Positions 40,730 through 53,223 of a stretch of 64,000 nt of DNA are shown piece after piece; position 1 is the first letter of the stretch; each line of letters opens with the position of its first letter. The DNA is taken from positions 124,001 through 188,000 of the forward strand of contig JAGSHN010000012.1 in NCBI GenBank assembly GCA_029855935.1. The letters are read 5' to 3'. The position numbers and the translations under genes were made by a program. The DNA comes from Candidatus Thorarchaeota archaeon (GTDB taxonomy: Archaea > Asgardarchaeota > Thorarchaeia > Thorarchaeales > Thorarchaeaceae). The notes below the pieces were generated by a model that saw nothing but the letters and a program-made list of their open reading frames with translations, did no database searches and had not been told where the DNA came from.

Positions 40730-41509
40730 ATGAGTGATGCTTTCCAGTCCGAAGTGTATGCCTCCATTGCCACACTGGACCAGCTCAAGCGTCTCTACGA
40801 CCTCGGCGATATCGATGTCCGCTTCTTCGAGCGTGAGTCGCGAGCATTGATCAACGAGGTTCAGCGTGGTCTCGAACAGATGAAGCGTCTTGGGCTGGAT
40901 GTGCAGGCCTTTCTGACAGACTGGAGCATACACCAGCGTTTTCCGGAGGCTGCGAATCTACTCGGACTGGTCCCTGCGCAGCCGGCAGGCCCGACGTGGA
41001 CGGCGGGCCAGTGGGCATCGAAAGAGGAGTTCTATGACTACCTAGGTCTGCTTGTTCTTGATGTGGCGACCAAACATTCCTCAAAGGGTCTGATCGGTCT
41101 GGCTGAGATGATAGTCGAGGTGCTCCGCAGCCTGCCTAATCCCCAGGTGGCCAAGTTCACTGACGTCATCGAGGCCGTCAACCGCGTTTCGGGGGCTGGA
41201 CTGATTCCCGGTATCCGTACGCTGAAGGGTGGTGTCAAGGTTGTCGAGCTCCGCCCCCTTGAGCTGAGACGTGATCAGGCCGATGTCATCAATCTCGCGG
41301 CGGGCAAGGGCTACGTTTCTCTTGAAGAGGTGATGATGAACCTCGGTTGGTCCGAGGATCACGCACGACGCGTCCTGGCCAGTCTTGTAGAAGCCGGGAT
41401 AGCGGTCGTGAGCCTGAAGTATAGCACAGGTGGCAGATACTATTTCCCCGGGCTCCGTCCGATGGAACAGGATGGTGGCCCGGACGGCAGTCCTACAGTC
41501 TCAGAGTGA
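40730..41509 (+). CDS. Vps28-like/Vps22 (EAP30) fusion protein, ESCRT-I/II
   Basis: A 259-residue protein joining two ESCRT parts. Residues about 8-75 follow the Vps28 N-terminal domain pattern: VYASIATLDQLKRLYDLGDID, then a helix, then DVQAFLTDWSI and a terminal EAANLL. Residues about 95-250 follow Vps22/EAP30: FYDYLGLLVLDVATKH, KGLIGLAEMIVEVL, FTDVIEAVNRVSGAGLIPG, then a second winged helix (VINLAAGKGYVSLEEVMMNLGW, RRVLASLVEAGIAVV, GRYYFPGL). In eukaryotes Vps28 bridges ESCRT-I to ESCRT-II; here the link would be covalent. ATG 40730 has AGAGGT 7 bases upstream. It overlaps convergent vps25 by 17 bp. Confidence 0.82.
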   Translation: MSDAFQSEVYASIATLDQLKRLYDLGDIDVRFFERESRALINEVQRGLEQMKRLGLDVQAFLTDWSIHQRFPEAANLLGLVPAQPAGPTWTAGQWASKEEFYDYLGLLVLDVATKHSSKGLIGLAEMIVEVLRSLPNPQVAKFTDVIEAVNRVSGAGLIPGIRTLKGGVKVVELRPLELRRDQADVINLAAGKGYVSLEEVMMNLGWSEDHARRVLASLVEAGIAVVSLKYSTGGRYYFPGLRPMEQDGGPDGSPTVSE

Positions 41510-42179
41510 TGGCATGGCGTTTCTTGTCAAGCCACTCGGCCAGTCCGTCCTCCACCAGGATTTGGAGAGCCCTGTGCAGCTCCTCCTCGGGCAGAGATGA
41601 GAAGGTTTCCTCTGGACACTGAATGACAAGGGTCTTGACATCAATCTGCCGTTCCCCTCGCCTCAGTGCCCATGCGTAGATGACCTCGGCCCACTCCTGC
41701 ACGGAGCGCCAGTATACCCTCAGCCTCCTCTTCTCCTCGTCCATCCACTCTGCGACTCCCTGCCCAACCAACCAGTCCCCAATCAGTCTGAATGCCTCAA
41801 TCTTTCCGTGAATCTCGCCGAACTCTCTCTCTATGATGAAATCGCCAAGCGAAACAACATGGGCACCCTGATGCCTCGCCCAGTCGAGCAGATACTCTCC
41901 CCACTCTGCTGTCCATCTTTCCCTTGCCGCGTCATTCTCTGGAACTGTATACATCCACACGGCGGCGCGCGAGCCACCCCATGGAGGCGGTGGTCCTCTC
42001 TCCCTCTGGGCCACGGTGACTGCCTGCGTCCGCACTCTCGCTGAATCCCTCGTCCTGTCGTGGCGTATCGCACCGGAGATTGGGAGCGGCTGACCTCTCG
42101 CTGTTTCCGTAGCTGGTACAGTGTCCCGCTGTTCCCCGGTTCGTTTCTCCCGCTGTTTCCGTTGTTCTCTCACAGCCAC
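41493..42179 (-). CDS. vps25: Vps25-like ESCRT-II subunit with long N-terminal extension
   Basis: The protein has 228 residues. The C-terminal 150 follow Vps25: two winged helices. Key segments are AEWGEYLLDWARHQGA, GVAEWMDEEKRRLRVYWR, VQEWAEVIYAWALRRG and LHRALQILVEDGLAEWLD; the WR...EWAxxIYxW block is the most telling. Residues 1-70 are basic, Gln/Arg/Thr-rich and probably disordered, ending in a PPPPWGG stretch that recalls the aromatic-proline start of eukaryotic Vps25. In ESCRT-II it binds Vps22 and recruits ESCRT-III. It starts at GTG 2 bases after the vps4 stop, so the genes form one transcript. Confidence 0.85.
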   Translation of the reverse strand: MAVREQRKQREKRTGEQRDTVPATETARGQPLPISGAIRHDRTRDSARVRTQAVTVAQRERGPPPPWGGSRAAVWMYTVPENDAARERWTAEWGEYLLDWARHQGAHVVSLGDFIIEREFGEIHGKIEAFRLIGDWLVGQGVAEWMDEEKRRLRVYWRSVQEWAEVIYAWALRRGERQIDVKTLVIQCPEETFSSLPEEELHRALQILVEDGLAEWLDKKRHAITLRL

Positions 42180-42181
42180 GG

Positions 42182-43381
42182 CTACGGTGCCTCCGCCCAG
42201 CTGACGTACCTGCTTATGTCATTGGCTCTGATGGCTGGCCTCGTCAGGTCGATGGCGTACAGAAAGTCGTCCATACTCACAGGACGCAATACGGGGGTCA
42301 GACCATCACTCGAGAGCTGTCCGGTTCGCTGAAGTTCTCTGATCGGCTCCATTGCAGCCTCCCTGCATATCACGCTGATGTCCCTCCCGCTGTAGCCCTC
42401 GGTCAGGTCGGCAAGATCGCGGAAGCTCACATCTGCAGCGACTTCGACATCACGCATATGGACCCTGAAGATCATCTCCCGGGCATTCAGGTCCGGTAGA
42501 GGCACCAGTATCCGCTTCTCGAATCTGGACAGCAAGGCAAAGTCGAGTTCCCAAGGTAGATTTGTGGCCGCTATCACTGTGACTCGTTCTTCCGGTCTGC
42601 TGTTCAGGCCCTGGAGCTCGGTGAGGAGTTGAGTCTTCAATCGACGTTCTCCTCCGACATCGTCTGAGGAGCGCAGGCTACCGATGGAGTCTATCTCGTC
42701 GACGAAGATGATGGACGGCTGTCTCTCCCGGGCCATTGCGAAGAGAAGGTGGACGAGCCGCTCTGACTCCCCCAACCATTTGCTCACAATATTGGCTGCG
42801 GATACGTTGAAGAAGGTGGCGTTGATCTCTGCGGCTACCGCCTTGGCAATCATGGTCTTTCCGCAACCAGATGGACCATAGAGCAGGATGCCCCTCCACG
42901 GCTGTCTGGCCCGTCCTCGAAATAGCCCCGGATACCTCATTGGGACAATGACTGCGTCGTTGATTGCCTGTTTCGCCATCTCAAGACCCGCCACATCTGT
43001 GAGCCGGACGTTCGGTCTCTCCGTCACCATGGTGTCCTCAAGGGCCTCCATGAGATTGCGAGTTTCTGCAGAATCGGTTGCGAGTTCAGACCGTGGTGAG
43101 GCTGGCGAGACTGGCATGTCCGACGAGCTGGTGGGCCGTGGTCTCCGGGCGCGATGTTCGACAGTCACTCCCGACAGCTGCTTGACTCGCTGTATGCACT
43201 CCTCTGCGCGCCTGTAGTAGTAGTCTCTGACAGAGGGAATGCTTGTAGACCTAGACAGCTGCACGAGGACCCTGCTGGCCTGCAGATATGCCTGACAGGC
43301 CTCTCTTGCGAGGTTCTTCTGGTCCAGCTGTATGGCACGGCCGAGCAGCTCTCTCAGACCGCGGTCTATTCTGTCTGACAT
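42182..43381 (-). CDS. vps4: Vps4-type AAA ATPase with MIT domain
   Basis: An AAA ATPase of 399 residues that disassembles ESCRT-III filaments. Residues 1-72 form an MIT three-helix domain (LLGRAIQLDQKNLAREACQA, YYYRRAEECIQRV). A flexible linker (75-105) is followed by the AAA core: Walker A GPSGCGKT (169-176), pore loop KWLGES (201-206), Walker B IIFVDEID (224-231), sensor 1 AATN (271-274), and arginines near LLSRFEKR (283-290). The C-terminal part ends with the Vps4-type YAIDLTRPAI segment. The MIT domain should bind the C-terminal MIM1-like motif of the ESCRT-III protein at 48001. A TATA box lies at 43412-43419; vps25 follows directly. Confidence 0.95.
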   Translation of the reverse strand: MSDRIDRGLRELLGRAIQLDQKNLAREACQAYLQASRVLVQLSRSTSIPSVRDYYYRRAEECIQRVKQLSGVTVEHRARRPRPTSSSDMPVSPASPRSELATDSAETRNLMEALEDTMVTERPNVRLTDVAGLEMAKQAINDAVIVPMRYPGLFRGRARQPWRGILLYGPSGCGKTMIAKAVAAEINATFFNVSAANIVSKWLGESERLVHLLFAMARERQPSIIFVDEIDSIGSLRSSDDVGGERRLKTQLLTELQGLNSRPEERVTVIAATNLPWELDFALLSRFEKRILVPLPDLNAREMIFRVHMRDVEVAADVSFRDLADLTEGYSGRDISVICREAAMEPIRELQRTGQLSSDGLTPVLRPVSMDDFLYAIDLTRPAIRANDISRYVSWAEAP

Positions 43382-43464: not shown

Positions 43465-44814
43465 TCAGCCGGACGTGATCTGTGCCTGCTCTACTACGAT
43501 GGAGGGTGTGATTGCCTCAGAGGTCCTCCTCACATCCCCTCCGACGAGGATCACTCGTCTGAGCAGGTCGAGCATGTTTATTCCGATGAGAGTACTCTTC
43601 ACAGGGTACCGAATCTCTCCATTCTCGAAATAGTATCCCTCCATCACAAGTGCGCTGAGGTCGCCTGTCGTCATATTCGGTCTGTCGCCCGTGTCGCGAC
43701 AGAGTATACCGCGACCCACCTCTTCAACCAGATCCATCAGCCCGCCTCTTCCCGGTTGGACTATGAGATTACTTGGAGCAATCCTTGGAGGGCTGGAGTA
43801 GGAGGATCGGCTTGCGTGAGCGGTGTTCTCAACTTGATCCTTCTGTGCAGTGTACGAGTTGTGCAGTAGACTCTTTAGTACTCCCTGCTCAAGTAGCATT
43901 ATTCTCCTCGACGGAACCCCCTCTCCGTCGAACGGTCTTGAGCTGACCTCTCCAGGGCTCAGCGCATCATCTACTATAGTCAGGTGTTCAGAGGCTATCT
44001 GCTGTCCGAGGGCATCGGCGACGTACGACCGGCCGAACTGAACCTCCTCAGCGTTGACCGCTCCACCGAACCCGCCGCCAAGTACCGAGCCGACAGCTAT
44101 CGGCCCGAATACCACCGGCATCTTGTCGTTCTCAATTCTTCTGCCTCCGAGGTTTGCGATGACCGCAGCGGCCGCCTCTCTACCGACCTTCTCAGGGTCG
44201 AACTCGCGCAATGCTCGCGCCAGCTCATATTCAGAGCTCGATGTCTGTTCATCCTCTGTCTTGATGGTCGGAGCCGAGTAGATGTATCCGGTAGTCCCCT
44301 CGTAGTATGCCTCGATGCCCAACGAATTCACGATGCCAGCGCCCCCACGCGAGGTCCGCATCTGTGCCTCAATTGCATACTTGTAGTCTGACAAGCTCTC
44401 TTTGGTCGCGTCGACCATCCTTGTGACAATGTCGGCGGCCTCTTCGGAGCTGAGGTTGGCCATCGCCCGGTCGTAGAGTCTCTCAACAACTGGATATCCA
44501 CCGCTCGCCGAGGGGAGCGATCCAAAATCGGGGTCGGGGACAGAGACATGTGCGAGCGAGATGGCTCTCTCGACAGCGGCCCTGACGTCCTCCTCTCGGA
44601 TGGTCGTGACGTATGCAAAGCCGATTCTACTATCAATGACACACCTTATTCCACAGCCACTGTCACACCTCTCTGCAGCGCTCTTGATTGAGTTGTTCTC
44701 CACCTCAATTGTGAACGAGCGAGTGCTCGCCACAAAGGCCTCGGCCTGCTCGGCGCCTTGTCTCTCAGCGTGTCTGACCGCTATCTCAGCGATACCAAGT
44801 ATCTCTTCCCGCAC
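43465..44814 (-). CDS. tldE: TldE/PmbA-type subunit of TldD/E protease
   Basis: A 449-residue non-catalytic partner of TldD. It shares the fold (SRIGFAYVTTIREEDVRAAVERAI; VVFGPIAVGSVLGGGFGGAVNAEEV) but lacks the HExxxH zinc motif. At the end, GDLSALVMEGYYFENGEI matches PmbA. TldD/TldE heterodimers thread and cleave unfolded peptides. The start is GTG 44814, directly 2 bases after the tldD stop and behind GGAGGGAT; the longer frame to 44901 lies inside tldD. The pair lies between vps4-vps25 and the steadiness-box gene. Confidence 0.92.
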   Translation of the reverse strand: MREEILGIAEIAVRHAERQGAEQAEAFVASTRSFTIEVENNSIKSAAERCDSGCGIRCVIDSRIGFAYVTTIREEDVRAAVERAISLAHVSVPDPDFGSLPSASGGYPVVERLYDRAMANLSSEEAADIVTRMVDATKESLSDYKYAIEAQMRTSRGGAGIVNSLGIEAYYEGTTGYIYSAPTIKTEDEQTSSSEYELARALREFDPEKVGREAAAAVIANLGGRRIENDKMPVVFGPIAVGSVLGGGFGGAVNAEEVQFGRSYVADALGQQIASEHLTIVDDALSPGEVSSRPFDGEGVPSRRIMLLEQGVLKSLLHNSYTAQKDQVENTAHASRSSYSSPPRIAPSNLIVQPGRGGLMDLVEEVGRGILCRDTGDRPNMTTGDLSALVMEGYYFENGEIRYPVKSTLIGINMLDLLRRVILVGGDVRRTSEAITPSIVVEQAQITSG

Positions 44815-44816
44815 CT

Positions 44817-46202
44817 CTACATCCCTCCGACAGGAACTTCTGTGGCCCGTGCGTGTGGTCCACCGCTCATGTCCGGCACCCATTGACCATTCTTTCCGCA
44901 AGTACCTGCGTCAAGCTCGAAGTCCCTGCCCACCGCGTCTATCTTGGAGAGAACCTCCAGTATGAGACCTGACAGCGAAACATCCCTGACCATCTGGCCA
45001 ATCTCTCCCTTCTTGATCACGTATCCGTATTGGGCTTGAAACATGAAATGTCCCATAGAGGGGTTCGTGTAGCCGTAGTTGAATCTGCACAGGAGAAGGC
45101 CATGTCTGGTGTCCTCAATCAGCTCATCAACATCCCAGTCACCCGGCTCCATGAACGTGTTGCTCATCCTCGGGATGGGTACGTGTGCATAGGACTCAGC
45201 TCTGGCTGCGCCATTCGACTCCATCCCCAGCCTAGATGCCGTTTCGAGAGAGTGGAGTATCTCTGTCAAGATGCCGTCTTTGACAAGGATTCGCTTTCTC
45301 GTCTTTGTCCCTTCCCAGTCATATGGGTAGGATCCGCGGGCACAGTCCAGCGTGGGATCATCACTTATGTTGAGCCACTCTGGTCCGACACTCTGTCCGA
45401 GCTTGTCCTCAAGGACTGTTGTGTGCGCAGGCCAGCCATCGGCCTCACAGGCGTGTCCAAACGCCTCATGCACCATTACGCCGTTGAGGACCGGATCCAT
45501 CACGACATCGTAGACGCCTCCCCTTACAGCCACCGACGAGAGCAGGTCGACGGCGGTTCTTGCGGCTCTCTCTCCAACCGTCTGAGCGTCCTCTTCCATC
45601 ATCATCTCGAACCCGCCCTTTACTCCGACAGACCTGTAGGCACGCTGCCGATTCGCCCCCTCTCTTGCCGTTATTGACGATATGATGCGCGGGAGGGAGT
45701 TCTCAATATACACAGAGGTCCCAAGAGAATTGGCCACATAGAGCTCGCTCCACAGCTCCCCGTATACAGTCCTCGCATTGGAGACACGCTCGTCAAACTC
45801 ACGTGCCTGCATGTCAATCTGTTTGACAAACTCCATCTTCTCCTCCATCGGGACATCAGGGAAGGGGCGCCTGACGGAGATGAACTCCTTCGCCCTGAAA
45901 GTGGGGCCGTCGATCTCAAATCGTTCGGCAACAAGTGGACGGACAGCGAGAGCCAGCTTGGTAGCAGACTCGCCAACCCCTCGCATTCCCTCGGGTGTGA
46001 GTTCCGTCGTCTGAGCAAAGGCCCACGCCCCGTCGATGAACGCCCTCACTCCTGCGCCTCTGAGATGGGCGGACATCGACCTCCGAGTCACGCCATTGAC
46101 CATCTCTATAACGGTAGAGTGAGTGTTCTCAATTCTCACGTCAGCGAACGATGCTCCTGCGTCGAGTGCAGACTCTACGGCAATCTGGGCAAGGTCTTCC
46201 AT
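44817..46202 (-). CDS. tldD: TldD metallopeptidase
   Basis: A zinc metallopeptidase of about 461 residues. The HExxxH motif is in MVHEAFGHACEADG (about 246-259), and a third ligand cysteine would lie near the C-terminus (GTCGKNGQ). DVRIENTHSTVIEMVNG opens the N-terminal part. With TldE it forms a cage that degrades flexible peptides, and in bacteria it matures some peptides. The start chosen is ATG 46202 with GTGAT upstream. The frame to 46286 would begin before the minus-strand TATA-like AATTATAAC near 46235. Confidence 0.93.
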   Translation of the reverse strand: MEDLAQIAVESALDAGASFADVRIENTHSTVIEMVNGVTRRSMSAHLRGAGVRAFIDGAWAFAQTTELTPEGMRGVGESATKLALAVRPLVAERFEIDGPTFRAKEFISVRRPFPDVPMEEKMEFVKQIDMQAREFDERVSNARTVYGELWSELYVANSLGTSVYIENSLPRIISSITAREGANRQRAYRSVGVKGGFEMMMEEDAQTVGERAARTAVDLLSSVAVRGGVYDVVMDPVLNGVMVHEAFGHACEADGWPAHTTVLEDKLGQSVGPEWLNISDDPTLDCARGSYPYDWEGTKTRKRILVKDGILTEILHSLETASRLGMESNGAARAESYAHVPIPRMSNTFMEPGDWDVDELIEDTRHGLLLCRFNYGYTNPSMGHFMFQAQYGYVIKKGEIGQMVRDVSLSGLILEVLSKIDAVGRDFELDAGTCGKNGQWVPDMSGGPHARATEVPVGGM

Positions 46203-46340
46203 CAGAATCACTAGCCGGTCGCATACACCGCTCGTTATAATTGCTTTGAAGAGTGAGTGGCGGTCGGTGTAACCTTGGTGATACACAGCTCTTTCTTATC
46301 CCATCACTGAGTCGAGACCAAGGCACACGGAGGCACACAG

Positions 46341-47909
46341 TTGAGTCAAGAATCCGCGCGCGACTCTTGCCAGGTCTGCAGAAGGTCTAACGGCGTCTAC
46401 TTCTGTGAGGACTGCGGTGCTGTTCTGTGTGCTGACTGTGTTGAAACGGTCACAAGCGACTTCTACTTCTGTGGCGACTGCCACTCCCAGATCCCGTCCT
46501 CGGAGACCGACAATCATCCGCAGAAGTGTCCCGAGTGTGGCTCCGAAGAGATTCGTACGGGGCGCCGGGAAGAGGAACGATGCCCCCGGTGTCACTCGAC
46601 AAGGCTTGTGCTCGTGTCGGAAAAGCGACGTACTCTCGCTCAGGACCTGCGTCAGGCAATCAATGTTCTCCAGTACGGACACTCAAGATTTCACGAGCTC
46701 TCTAGACGTCTTACTCGGATTGTCGAGACTCTGGTGTCACTACGGATGGCAAAGTTCGTCCACTACCACTGGCTTGAGCGCCACTTGGAGGAATTGCAGG
46801 AGGAGGTCCCTGCACTCAGGAACCGAATAGTCAACCGGGCCGAGATGGTGGCGCGCCAGATGGCTGCGGAAACATCAGGGATAATGCACGACCCTCTATG
46901 GACGGCTGACCAGTTCCCGTTCATATCAGGTGTGGTGAACAGGCTGCGCGAGCTTGGACGGGAGTACAAGGAGCGAGTCGATGAGACCCTCGCTGGTGCA
47001 TTCCGTCGTCTGGAGGAGATCAGCAAGACGATTGAGGGTCTCGAGTATTTCCGACGAGCCTTTGTGGCCTTTTCTAGCCTCGTCCCCCTTGAGGTCAATG
47101 AGCTGCCCGTCTGTGCACTGCCGGATATCCGCCTCACGGGGTCCGACTTTCTCAAGCACGACAAAGCCGCAGGAACGCTCTATCTGACCGACCGGCGAAT
47201 GGTCTTCATTGCCACCACTGGGACTATTCGAAAGAGGGAGTCCGTGGTCTTTGACTTTCCTCTGCCGTATCTGTCGGGGATTGAGGAGGACGGCAGACGG
47301 AAGAAGCGTCTTGTTCTGAGGATGCAACAAGGCGACATCAGGATAGTCTGTCCTGAGGGAACACGACGTGTGATGAGCGACTACATGGAGATTGCTCGCA
47401 GCTTTGCCAAGTATGCACAGACCAATCTTCAGCGTACGAGGCAGCTGCAGCGGTTCAGTTGTGCGCCTGATGAGGTGAGGATCCGTATATTGGATCTGAT
47501 TGATGACCTGCTCTCTCGAGAACGACGCAGAGCGATTGCCATGAGCGGTACGGGGGCGTACACTCGCTCTCCTCCTCCGGTCCACAGCTGGGGCTATCCG
47601 GAGACCTCGAATAGTCCTAGGGCCACATTCTCGGGGTCGCCATTCAGTCCGCAGGCCACAAGTCCAGATAGTCGCTACAGCTTGGACGGCTCGTATGTGA
47701 GAACGGCTGCGACTTCGCCCCCGCGCGGTGTCTACTCGCAACACTATGGCGACGGGGACATGACTGCACTACTCAATCACGAGATCCAAGAGACAATACG
47801 TGCACTCAGACGGGGTCGACTTCCTCCTGACGAGTTTGTTCGGCGTTATCGTGACCTGATGCGGAGTTCATTTGAGATGGAGCGACGCTTCTACGAAAGG
47901 GTTCGGTAG
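46341..47909 (+). CDS. zinc finger-coiled coil-GRAM/PH-steadiness box protein (Vps23-like ESCRT-I candidate)
   Basis: The protein has 522 residues. Residues 10-47 form a B-box-like finger with four CxxC pairs (C10/C13, C22/C25, C30/C33, C44/C47). Residues 63-84 form a zinc ribbon (CPEC...CPRC). Residues 95-250 are helical and coiled-coil-like. Residues 265-370 resemble a GRAM/PH domain (AGTLYLTDRRMVFIATTGT; KRLVLRM). Residues 395-465 are a Pro/Ser/Tyr-rich linker. The last 45 residues (IRALRRGRLPPDEFVRRYRDL, then SSFEMERRFYE) resemble the steadiness box of Tsg101/Vps23. It has no UEV domain. TTG is the start, with GGAGG 7 bases upstream. It is next to the ESCRT-III gene, convergent. A membrane-binding ESCRT-I subunit is inferred. 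Confidence 0.72.
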   Translation: MSQESARDSCQVCRRSNGVYFCEDCGAVLCADCVETVTSDFYFCGDCHSQIPSSETDNHPQKCPECGSEEIRTGRREEERCPRCHSTRLVLVSEKRRTLAQDLRQAINVLQYGHSRFHELSRRLTRIVETLVSLRMAKFVHYHWLERHLEELQEEVPALRNRIVNRAEMVARQMAAETSGIMHDPLWTADQFPFISGVVNRLRELGREYKERVDETLAGAFRRLEEISKTIEGLEYFRRAFVAFSSLVPLEVNELPVCALPDIRLTGSDFLKHDKAAGTLYLTDRRMVFIATTGTIRKRESVVFDFPLPYLSGIEEDGRRKKRLVLRMQQGDIRIVCPEGTRRVMSDYMEIARSFAKYAQTNLQRTRQLQRFSCAPDEVRIRILDLIDDLLSRERRRAIAMSGTGAYTRSPPPVHSWGYPETSNSPRATFSGSPFSPQATSPDSRYSLDGSYVRTAATSPPRGVYSQHYGDGDMTALLNHEIQETIRALRRGRLPPDEFVRRYRDLMRSSFEMERRFYERVR

Positions 47910-48000: not shown

Positions 48001-48633
48001 CTAGAGGCCAAGCCTCCTCTCAAGCGCCTGAATCTCTTCTGCCAGTCTGTCGGGTGGTGCCTTGGTGGATGGAGTGGTCCCCCTACGGCCGCCACTCTCC
48101 ACAACCTCGGAATCTATCTCCGCCATCACGTCTGCCAGCTCCTCAGGAGCAATTCTGCCATCCGTGGCTCCGTGGAGGGTCTCCTCGAAGATGCCGTTCT
48201 CAATCTCGAACTGCTCGAGTCTTCGTGCCACCTCGTCGAGATTCTGAATGACCCTCTTGGCACTGATCTCTTCTCCGAGGATACCAAAGATTGCTGCCAC
48301 CCTCTCCATGCCTATGTTGACTCTTGCTGTTATCCTCGCTCGCTTGATGTAGGACGCAATACGTAGAAGAGAGAACCGGACACGCTCGATCTTGAGAATA
48401 TCACGATGTGTCCGCAGGACCTCCCCGGCATAGAGTATGCAGGCCTCGTTCTGCCCGTTTCTGCGAGCTGTCACTGCCCGCCTCTTGGCATCGGCAGCCA
48501 GTTTCTCCAGATGGTTGCGCTCACGTTCGAGCTCTCTGGCCATCACCTGAAGACCGCTGACAATCTCCGTGACATCTGGCTTTTTTCTGCCCCATATGGC
48601 GGCCCGCTTCAACAGACGCAATAGTTTCACCAC
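48001..48633 (-). CDS. ESCRT-III subunit (Vps2/24/46-like) with C-terminal MIM1-like motif
   Basis: A 210-residue, almost wholly helical protein. A basic N-terminus (MVKLLRLLKRAAIWGRKK) suits membrane contact. A long helical hairpin follows (about 25-100: ELERERNHLEKLAADAKRRAV, then a helix ending in ILRTHRDILK-like residues), then shorter helices with MERVAAIFGILGEEISAKRV and an acidic C-terminal half. The extreme C-terminus has ALERRLGL, which fits the LxxRL core of MIM1 motifs that bind Vps4 MIT domains. It would polymerise on membranes in division or scission. A TATA box lies at 48673-48680. Only one ESCRT-III paralogue is in the window; most Asgard genomes carry a second elsewhere. Confidence 0.85.
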   Translation of the reverse strand: MVKLLRLLKRAAIWGRKKPDVTEIVSGLQVMARELERERNHLEKLAADAKRRAVTARRNGQNEACILYAGEVLRTHRDILKIERVRFSLLRIASYIKRARITARVNIGMERVAAIFGILGEEISAKRVIQNLDEVARRLEQFEIENGIFEETLHGATDGRIAPEELADVMAEIDSEVVESGGRRGTTPSTKAPPDRLAEEIQALERRLGL

Positions 48634-52383: not shown

Positions 52384-53223
52384 TTGTCGTTGAGGCGGTC
52401 CATTCTTGGCATATGGGTGATTGAGCGGCACACCGGCCGTAATCTCGTCGCCCGTGCCTACGGGGGCATAGATGTGGATATGGATCTGATAGCTCCCTTT
52501 CTGTCAGCGACGCACACCTTCATCGACAAGGCATCGAACGAGTCTCTTCAGACAATCGACACGGTGAATTCACGATACGTGTGGGTCAGAAATGATCATC
52601 TACTGCTCGTGATGATTGTGAGCAAGGCGGCCCGGATTGGTCATATGCGTTTCCTGCTGAAGTACGCACTGAAGGAGTTCGTTGACACGATGATACCAAA
52701 GGGCCGTGACCTGGGAGAGTTCCTGAGCGAGTGGAAGGGCAATCCTGAGACCTTTGCCTCGTTCGGGGCATTCCTTGATGAGCTTGTCGAGCAGTATGAG
52801 ATGACTGATGAGAGTCTTGTTGCTGGAAAGTCTATGGACTCCTTGGAGGTGTACAATCACCTCTTCCGCGAGCTGATGCGGATCGATGTGGACCGCGTGA
52901 CGAAGAGGAAGATAGTCCGGGACATCAAGAGGCGCATGGCCTCTCTCATTGAGACATATCCGTTCTTGGAGGACGTGCCTGTCGATGAGGCTGGCGTCGA
53001 GGTGCTCGAGATTGACGTGCTCAACAACCAGATACCATATCGGGCCCTCCGTGCTGCACTTGAGGACCTGTTCCAAGTGGTTGCCGAGGCAGTCAGGTCG
53101 AATGTCGATTCAGGGTCCTACAGAGACTGCGTCTTCAGCCACGTGATGCGATACGTCAAGGAAGATCTGAAGCGTCTCCAGACATACGCCATTCTCGATG
53201 ATGTGGTCCGCTATCTCTTCTAG
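52384..53223 (+). CDS. longin/roadblock-like domain protein
   Basis: The protein has 279 residues. Residues 1-105 follow the longin fold order: strand ILGIWVIERHTGRNLVARAYGG, a helix (LIAPFLSATHTFIDK), a strand pair (SRYVWVRNDHLLLVMIVSKAA) and a long helix (MRFLLKYALKEFVDT). Longin domains occur in SNAREs, adaptor subunits and GTPase regulators; Asgard genomes are rich in them. The C-terminal part (about 145-279) is helical and not recognised. No membrane anchor is visible. The start is TTG 52384 or TTG 52390, after GAGGTGA. Convergent with the Trm11-like gene. Confidence 0.7.
   Translation: MSLRRSILGIWVIERHTGRNLVARAYGGIDVDMDLIAPFLSATHTFIDKASNESLQTIDTVNSRYVWVRNDHLLLVMIVSKAARIGHMRFLLKYALKEFVDTMIPKGRDLGEFLSEWKGNPETFASFGAFLDELVEQYEMTDESLVAGKSMDSLEVYNHLFRELMRIDVDRVTKRKIVRDIKRRMASLIETYPFLEDVPVDEAGVEVLEIDVLNNQIPYRALRAALEDLFQVVAEAVRSNVDSGSYRDCVFSHVMRYVKEDLKRLQTYAILDDVVRYLF

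Follow-up and report, generated by a model that had tools for sequence, protein, structure and literature searches.

Fusion of the Vps28 N-terminal domain to the Vps22 winged helices in Thorarchaeota, a probable covalent link between ESCRT-I and ESCRT-II

In eukaryotes, the N-terminal domain of Vps28 (Vps28-N) joins Vps23 and Vps37 in the ESCRT-I headpiece, and its C-terminal domain (Vps28-C) contacts ESCRT-II via Vps36, as outlined in the main text of Makarova et al. 2024 (PMC10936438). Eukaryotic Vps28 and SNF8 (Vps22) are separate proteins, and the connection made by Vps28-C and Vps36 is non-covalent. Joined ESCRT proteins have been described in Asgard archaea. In Heimdallarchaeota, HeimAB125_14070 is a UEV-Vps23-Vps28 fusion (Hatano et al. 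2022, PMC9192718). One sentence in the main text of Makarova et al. (PMC10936438) describes an Asgard 'Vps22#', cog.002769, as Vps22 'fused to an SB'.

The window analysed here is the whole stretch of 64,000 nucleotides from a Candidatus Thorarchaeota archaeon. An open reading frame with its ATG at 40730 and its stop codon at 41507-41509 encodes a protein of 259 amino acids, in which Vps28-N is followed by the tandem winged helices of Vps22. The uninterrupted frame given for 40730-41509 in the preliminary description was thus borne out. Since the same single frame without internal stops is present in 44 genomes, an assembly artefact as the source of the fusion is ruled out. The features of the locus are as follows.

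40730 to 41509, + strand: Vps28-N/Vps22 fusion gene, a single ORF of 259 aa with orthologues in 44 of 47 Thorarchaeota genomes.
40745 to 40972, + strand: Vps28 N-terminal (ESCRT-I headpiece) domain, residues 6-81, by profiles, models and fold matches to the Vps28 chains of 2f6m, 2caz and 6vme.
40973 to 41017, + strand: low-confidence interdomain linker, residues 82-96 (pLDDT 55-72 in residues 81-100).
41018 to 41458, + strand: tandem winged helices of Vps22/EAP30, residues 97-243, by Pfam, SNF8 match and profiles.
41493 to 42179, - strand: Vps25 (ESCRT-II) gene (PF05871, E 2.3e-14), running towards the fusion gene and sharing 17 bases with its 3' end.
42182 to 43381, - strand: Vps4-type AAA ATPase with MIT domain (PF00004, MIT, Vps4_C; CdvC family, E 1e-81).
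46341 to 47909, + strand: protein with Zn-ribbon, coiled coil, PH-like domain and C-terminal steadiness-box-like hairpin (Znr_PH_CC_SB type), by profile and by orthologues near the fusion.
48001 to 48633, - strand: ESCRT-III (Snf7 family) gene (PF03357, E 6e-9).

The protein resembles cog.002769, an Asgard Vps22 in which a steadiness-box-type domain accompanies the tandem winged helices. That class very likely includes the Thorarchaeota protein, and therefore the fusion itself cannot be counted as new. However, the main text describing cog.002769 does not give Thorarchaeota, the Vps28-N identity, the replacement of the Vps22 N-terminal helical domain (Vps22-N) or the loss of Vps28-C and Vps23. 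Its wording implies a feature general for Vps22, which is untrue of the canonical Vps22s examined here, and the box termed 'SB' there is read here as Vps28-type and not Vps23-type. HeimAB125_14070 is likewise a single chain of ESCRT domains including Vps28 in an Asgard archaeon, but it stays inside ESCRT-I (Vps23 and Vps28), whereas the Thorarchaeota fusion spans ESCRT-I to ESCRT-II and carries Vps28-N only. The separate Asgard Vps28 and Vps22, encoded in a vps23-vps28-vps22 operon, have the same two domains in adjacent genes and in the same order, but as two proteins, each with a second domain (Vps28-C and Vps22-N, respectively). With respect to eukaryotic proteins, the winged-helix half matches human SNF8 across residues 71-242 (E ~1e-15; human and yeast structures 2zme, 3cuq and 1u5t), and the headpiece fold of the Vps28 N-domain (2f6m, 2caz, 6vme) is matched by the N-domain of the fusion. 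What appears new, as judged from the main texts of the literature (supplements may hold some of it), is the Vps28-N identity, the Vps22-N replacement, the operon precursor, the limitation to Thorarchaeota and a disappearance of Vps28-C and Vps23 that coincides with the fusion.

Three separate alignments were made, of the N-domain of the Thorarchaeota fusion, of Vps28-N from separate Asgard Vps28 proteins, and of the N-terminal helices of canonical Asgard Vps22. In profile-profile comparison, the Thorarchaeota N-domain matched Asgard Vps28-N at 99.2-99.3% (E 2.1e-19 to 3.8e-20) over about 80 ungapped columns (82 in one comparison). A Vps28-N HMM made exclusively from non-Thorarchaeota sequences gave 52.4 bits on residues 6-81 of the fusion (E 2e-13 scaled to 100,000 sequences), against a maximum of 6.9 bits among 5000 shuffles. 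The reference alignments were anchored in the PDB, where the Asgard Vps28-N profile ranked the yeast and human VPS28 headpiece chains first and the canonical Asgard Vps22-N profile ranked human SNF8 first; the separate Asgard Vps28 genes also passed Pfam VPS28 across almost the entire length of the family. The Thorarchaeota N-domain alone as a PDB profile query gave no meaningful match, and the Asgard Vps28 intermediate was required. Residues conserved in genuine Vps28 (IATLD, G-x-[VI]-D, FP.A) are retained in the N-domain. These comparisons confirm that the N-terminal half of the fusion is Vps28's own headpiece domain. Pfam VPS28 on residues 7-69 remained below the cut-off (E 0.0026 for the isolated half); because Pfam alone is weak for this part, the earlier recognition of a Vps28-type N-terminus was right but profiles were required as proof. 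The boundary then placed at residue 75 shifts somewhat: the domain extends to about residue 81 and the winged helices start at 97, with a flexible linker, variable in length and sequence among orthologues, between them.

An AlphaFold2 model of the whole fusion (mean pLDDT 88) contained a confident helical N-domain, a low-confidence linker at about residues 81-96, and the winged helices. Its pTM was only 0.48, a value to be expected when a flexible link holds two bodies. Helices in the N-domain comprise residues 2-24, 30-53, 58-64, 67-70 and 72-78. In Foldseek searches the whole model matched human and yeast ESCRT-II chains, and for a model of the N-domain only (pLDDT 89.5) the top ten PDB matches were all Vps28 headpiece chains. 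These ten matches had query-normalised TM values of 0.65-0.77 over about 80 residues, with E-values >0.1 because the domain is short and helical. As Vps28 rows were contained in the input alignment of the N-domain model, the fold matches are supporting and not independent evidence.

The C-terminal half was assigned to Vps22 by Pfam EAP30 (PF04157; residues 70-227, E 1.1e-9, above the cut-off), by a Vps22 winged-helix HMM (137.6 bits, residues 97-243) and by profile-profile comparison to Asgard Vps22 winged helices (100%, 4e-42). The reading of the remainder as Vps22 with two winged helices was thus upheld, and profile searches with the two halves separately led to Vps28-N (99%) and to the Vps22 winged helices (100%). 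The C-terminal helical-bundle domain of Vps28 is absent from the fusion protein by HMM. The N-terminal helical domain of Vps22 is missing as well (-1.9 bits with the canonical Asgard Vps22-N HMM; 0.2% in profile-profile comparison with hhalign), and the protein is therefore classed as a fusion variant and not as a canonical Vps22.

The distribution of the fusion was surveyed in 228 Asgard genomes, 47 from Thorarchaeota and 181 from other lineages. The full-length fusion was found in 44 of the 47 Thorarchaeota genomes, the three without it being 74-86% complete, and in 0/181 of the other Asgard genomes. A survey across Asgard Vps22 genes, suggested when the locus was first described, thus confines the fusion to Thorarchaeota. 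A profile search of contigs yielded 39 named loci of the same family, including SMTZ1-45 and AB_25, whose names confirm it as Thorarchaeota, although four are otherwise labelled ('Lokiarchaeota' or plain 'archaeon'); these were found with the alignment as query, a single-sequence query of contigs giving none. A separate observation concerns the Vps22 proteins of families f20 and f21 (L109-L113), which are 328-339 aa long and begin with some 170 aa of unrelated helical sequence in place of the canonical N-domain. They were considered as a second Vps28 fusion and rejected, as these 170 residues match neither Vps28-N nor Vps22-N; they represent a second, different N-terminal replacement.

Vps23 is the ubiquitin-binding subunit of ESCRT-I. 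A Vps28-C profile, which found its domain in 17 of 22 non-Thorarchaeota genomes, gave no credible match in 37 Thorarchaeota genomes, the one match being a 53-aa frame with stops (E 0.01). A Vps23 (UEV-coiled-coil-SB) profile gave the same picture, with matches outside Thorarchaeota and no detectable Vps23 within, except for one match to the coiled coil only, in the window's genome. Vps28-C and Vps23 thus appear to be absent from Thorarchaeota, in the sense that no sequence for them is detectable. With Vps23 also undetected, the fusion module is expected to attach to a partner that is not a standard ESCRT-I. Hatano et al. (PMC9192718) reported finding no ubiquitin genes in Thorarchaeota.

Other ESCRT-like proteins were seen in these genomes. 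A Pfam VPS28 match at G000:C21:327533-328054 was considered as a retained full Vps28 and rejected, as it belongs to a coiled-coil family of 410-450 aa that gives 0.3% in profile comparison with Asgard Vps28. This family, with sub-threshold Pfam VPS28 matches (L059 1884-3218 (+); G000:C21:327383-328717), is the best candidate found for the 'Vps5-BAR' protein that Eme et al. 2023 (PMC10307638) reported as often fused to Vps28 in Thorarchaeia, and may be the same protein. Another EAP30-type protein, the second in Thorarchaeota and about 790 aa long, ends in a canonical-type Vps22 N-helical domain and winged helices (L114 1288-3633 (-), L115-L118; alignment A9) and could be a Vps36-like partner. 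It is present in 35 of 47 Thorarchaeota genomes and absent from the window's own genome, so the ESCRT-II make-up of this genome may differ from that of its relatives.

The fusion is encoded together with Vps25, Vps4 and ESCRT-III. The Znr_PH_CC_SB gene is conserved with it: 36 of 37 Thorarchaeota genomes have an orthologue, and its distance to the fusion is 2.7-4.8 kb in 31 of 34. In profile-profile comparison the C-terminus of this protein matched the Vps23 steadiness box at 77.5% (E 2e-5), a moderate level of support. A Vps23 steadiness-box HMM at E 0.05 detected no clear steadiness box anywhere in Thorarchaeota and missed Znr_PH_CC_SB. This architecture is classed as a likely ESCRT-I component in the main text of Makarova et al. 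(PMC10936438). The Znr_PH_CC_SB protein is the likeliest candidate for a headpiece partner of the Vps28-N domain. In this genome its gene is oriented opposite to that of most Thorarchaeota relatives, a local rearrangement. Two adjacent genes between Vps4 and Znr_PH_CC_SB (window 43465-46286, - strand) we take, by eye, to be a TldD/PmbA-like pair. Near the ESCRT cluster, a 279-aa protein (window 52384-53223, + strand) shows weak longin-type similarity (Fuz_longin_1, E 0.013), and its C-terminus is probably helical.

Taken together, it is probable that the fusion is a Thorarchaeota-specific ESCRT-II subunit, arisen once, with Vps28-N in place of the Vps22 N-helices and acting as a covalent bridge to an ESCRT-I-like partner. 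The hairpin of Vps28-N would pack on the steadiness box of this partner, for which the Znr_PH_CC_SB protein encoded nearby is the most likely candidate, and membrane binding would come from that protein. The winged helices would bind Vps25, which in turn would recruit ESCRT-III and Vps4, both encoded alongside. The covalent link would assume the ESCRT-II-binding job that Vps28-C performs elsewhere, and Vps28-C could be lost because of this proposed takeover. That the fusion hardwires ESCRT-I to ESCRT-II is supported indirectly by the sequences, in which the headpiece half is fused and the ESCRT-II-binding half is undetectable; read most simply, the covalent bond would have replaced the Vps28-C contact.

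Alternatively, Vps28-N could be real but repurposed as a dimerisation or stalk domain of Vps22 replacing the lost helices, the link to an ESCRT-I-like partner being gone. It occupies the exact former place of the Vps22 N-helical domain, its usual partner Vps23 is undetectable, and self-interaction of Thorarchaeota Vps22 has been reported by Y2H (Hatano et al., PMC9192718). However, the N-domain retains the residues of genuine Vps28, a gene with a steadiness-box-like C-terminus is kept 2.7-4.8 kb from the fusion in nearly all Thorarchaeota, and we regard repurposing as unlikely.

A second alternative treats the N-terminal half as a generic hairpin of the steadiness-box type, as in Vps23/Vps37, and not specifically as Vps28's domain. 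The fused domain was named SB in the main text of Makarova et al. (PMC10936438), and the Vps23 steadiness box and Vps28-N are themselves related (96.6% in profile-profile comparison). Yet the Thorarchaeota N-domain gave 0.8% against the Vps23 steadiness box and 99.3% against Vps28-N, the match extends past the hairpin to the third and later Vps28-N helices, and Vps23 steadiness-box chains aligned over just 52-55 residues in the fold search. A generic hairpin is thus very improbable, and the assignment to Vps28-N is retained.

The preliminary description had left it open whether the fusion is ancestral or derived. Outside Thorarchaeota, 15 families carry vps22 immediately downstream of a vps28 gene of the same orientation, with gaps of -77 to 441 bp, and the fusion is accordingly resolved as derived. 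In other Asgard lineages vps23 lies upstream of both, and the gene order vps28 to vps22 is the domain order of the fusion. Thorarchaeota form a single clade with support of 100/100 both in the N-domain tree and in the winged-helix tree; the lineage nearest to them was not resolved by the former. An ancestral fusion, split later in every other Asgard lineage and in eukaryotes, would also predict the adjacency of vps28 and vps22 in many lineages. It is hardly credible, as the fusion is restricted to one clade and a split must regenerate both Vps28-C and Vps22-N, homologous to the eukaryotic domains. A single origin in the Thorarchaeota stem, from the vps23-vps28-vps22 operon of other Asgard archaea, is most likely. 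It probably involved in-frame loss of Vps28-C and Vps22-N, in which a deletion would have brought together the linker that follows Vps28-N and the one that precedes the Vps22 winged helices. Between vps28 and vps22 of several Asgard families, a small free-standing Vps28-C-like ORF of about 95-104 aa was seen (L031 ~2348-2620, L033 ~1899-2150, L125 1789-2082), in agreement with the main text of PMC10936438.

An ordinary Vps22 whose N-terminal helices chance to look like Vps28 also starts with a helical hairpin, and in some other Vps22 proteins the alignment extends weakly to residue 18-44, but this reading is refuted at profile and fold level and retains practically no probability: the N-terminal 75 residues are not closer to ordinary Vps22 helices (99% for Vps28-N vs 0.2%; HMM -1.9 bits), the canonical N-terminus is present and clearly distinct in other Asgard families, and the Pfam EAP30 alignment starts at profile position 2 for a canonical Asgard Vps22 and at 58 or later for the fusion. 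The matches starting at query residue 18-44, considered as a shared N-domain, proved to be local extensions into the canonical Vps22 N-helices of other families.

In the preferred reading, two steps carried out by separate proteins in eukaryotes are joined in one Thorarchaeota molecule. As the fusion coincides with the loss of a domain that it would make redundant, it provides natural evidence that the Asgard role of Vps28-C is that of an ESCRT-I/ESCRT-II bridge, as in eukaryotes. It also indicates that the order of ESCRT domains was still changing within Asgard archaea, and its small proteins lend themselves to testing. More tentatively, the Thorarchaeota pathway may be ubiquitin-independent and its separate ESCRT-I dissolved, with Vps23 and Vps28-C gone, the headpiece placed in ESCRT-II and cargo or membrane recognition taken over by Znr_PH_CC_SB. 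Thorarchaeota offer a setting for studying an ESCRT system that lacks Vps23-based ubiquitin recognition.
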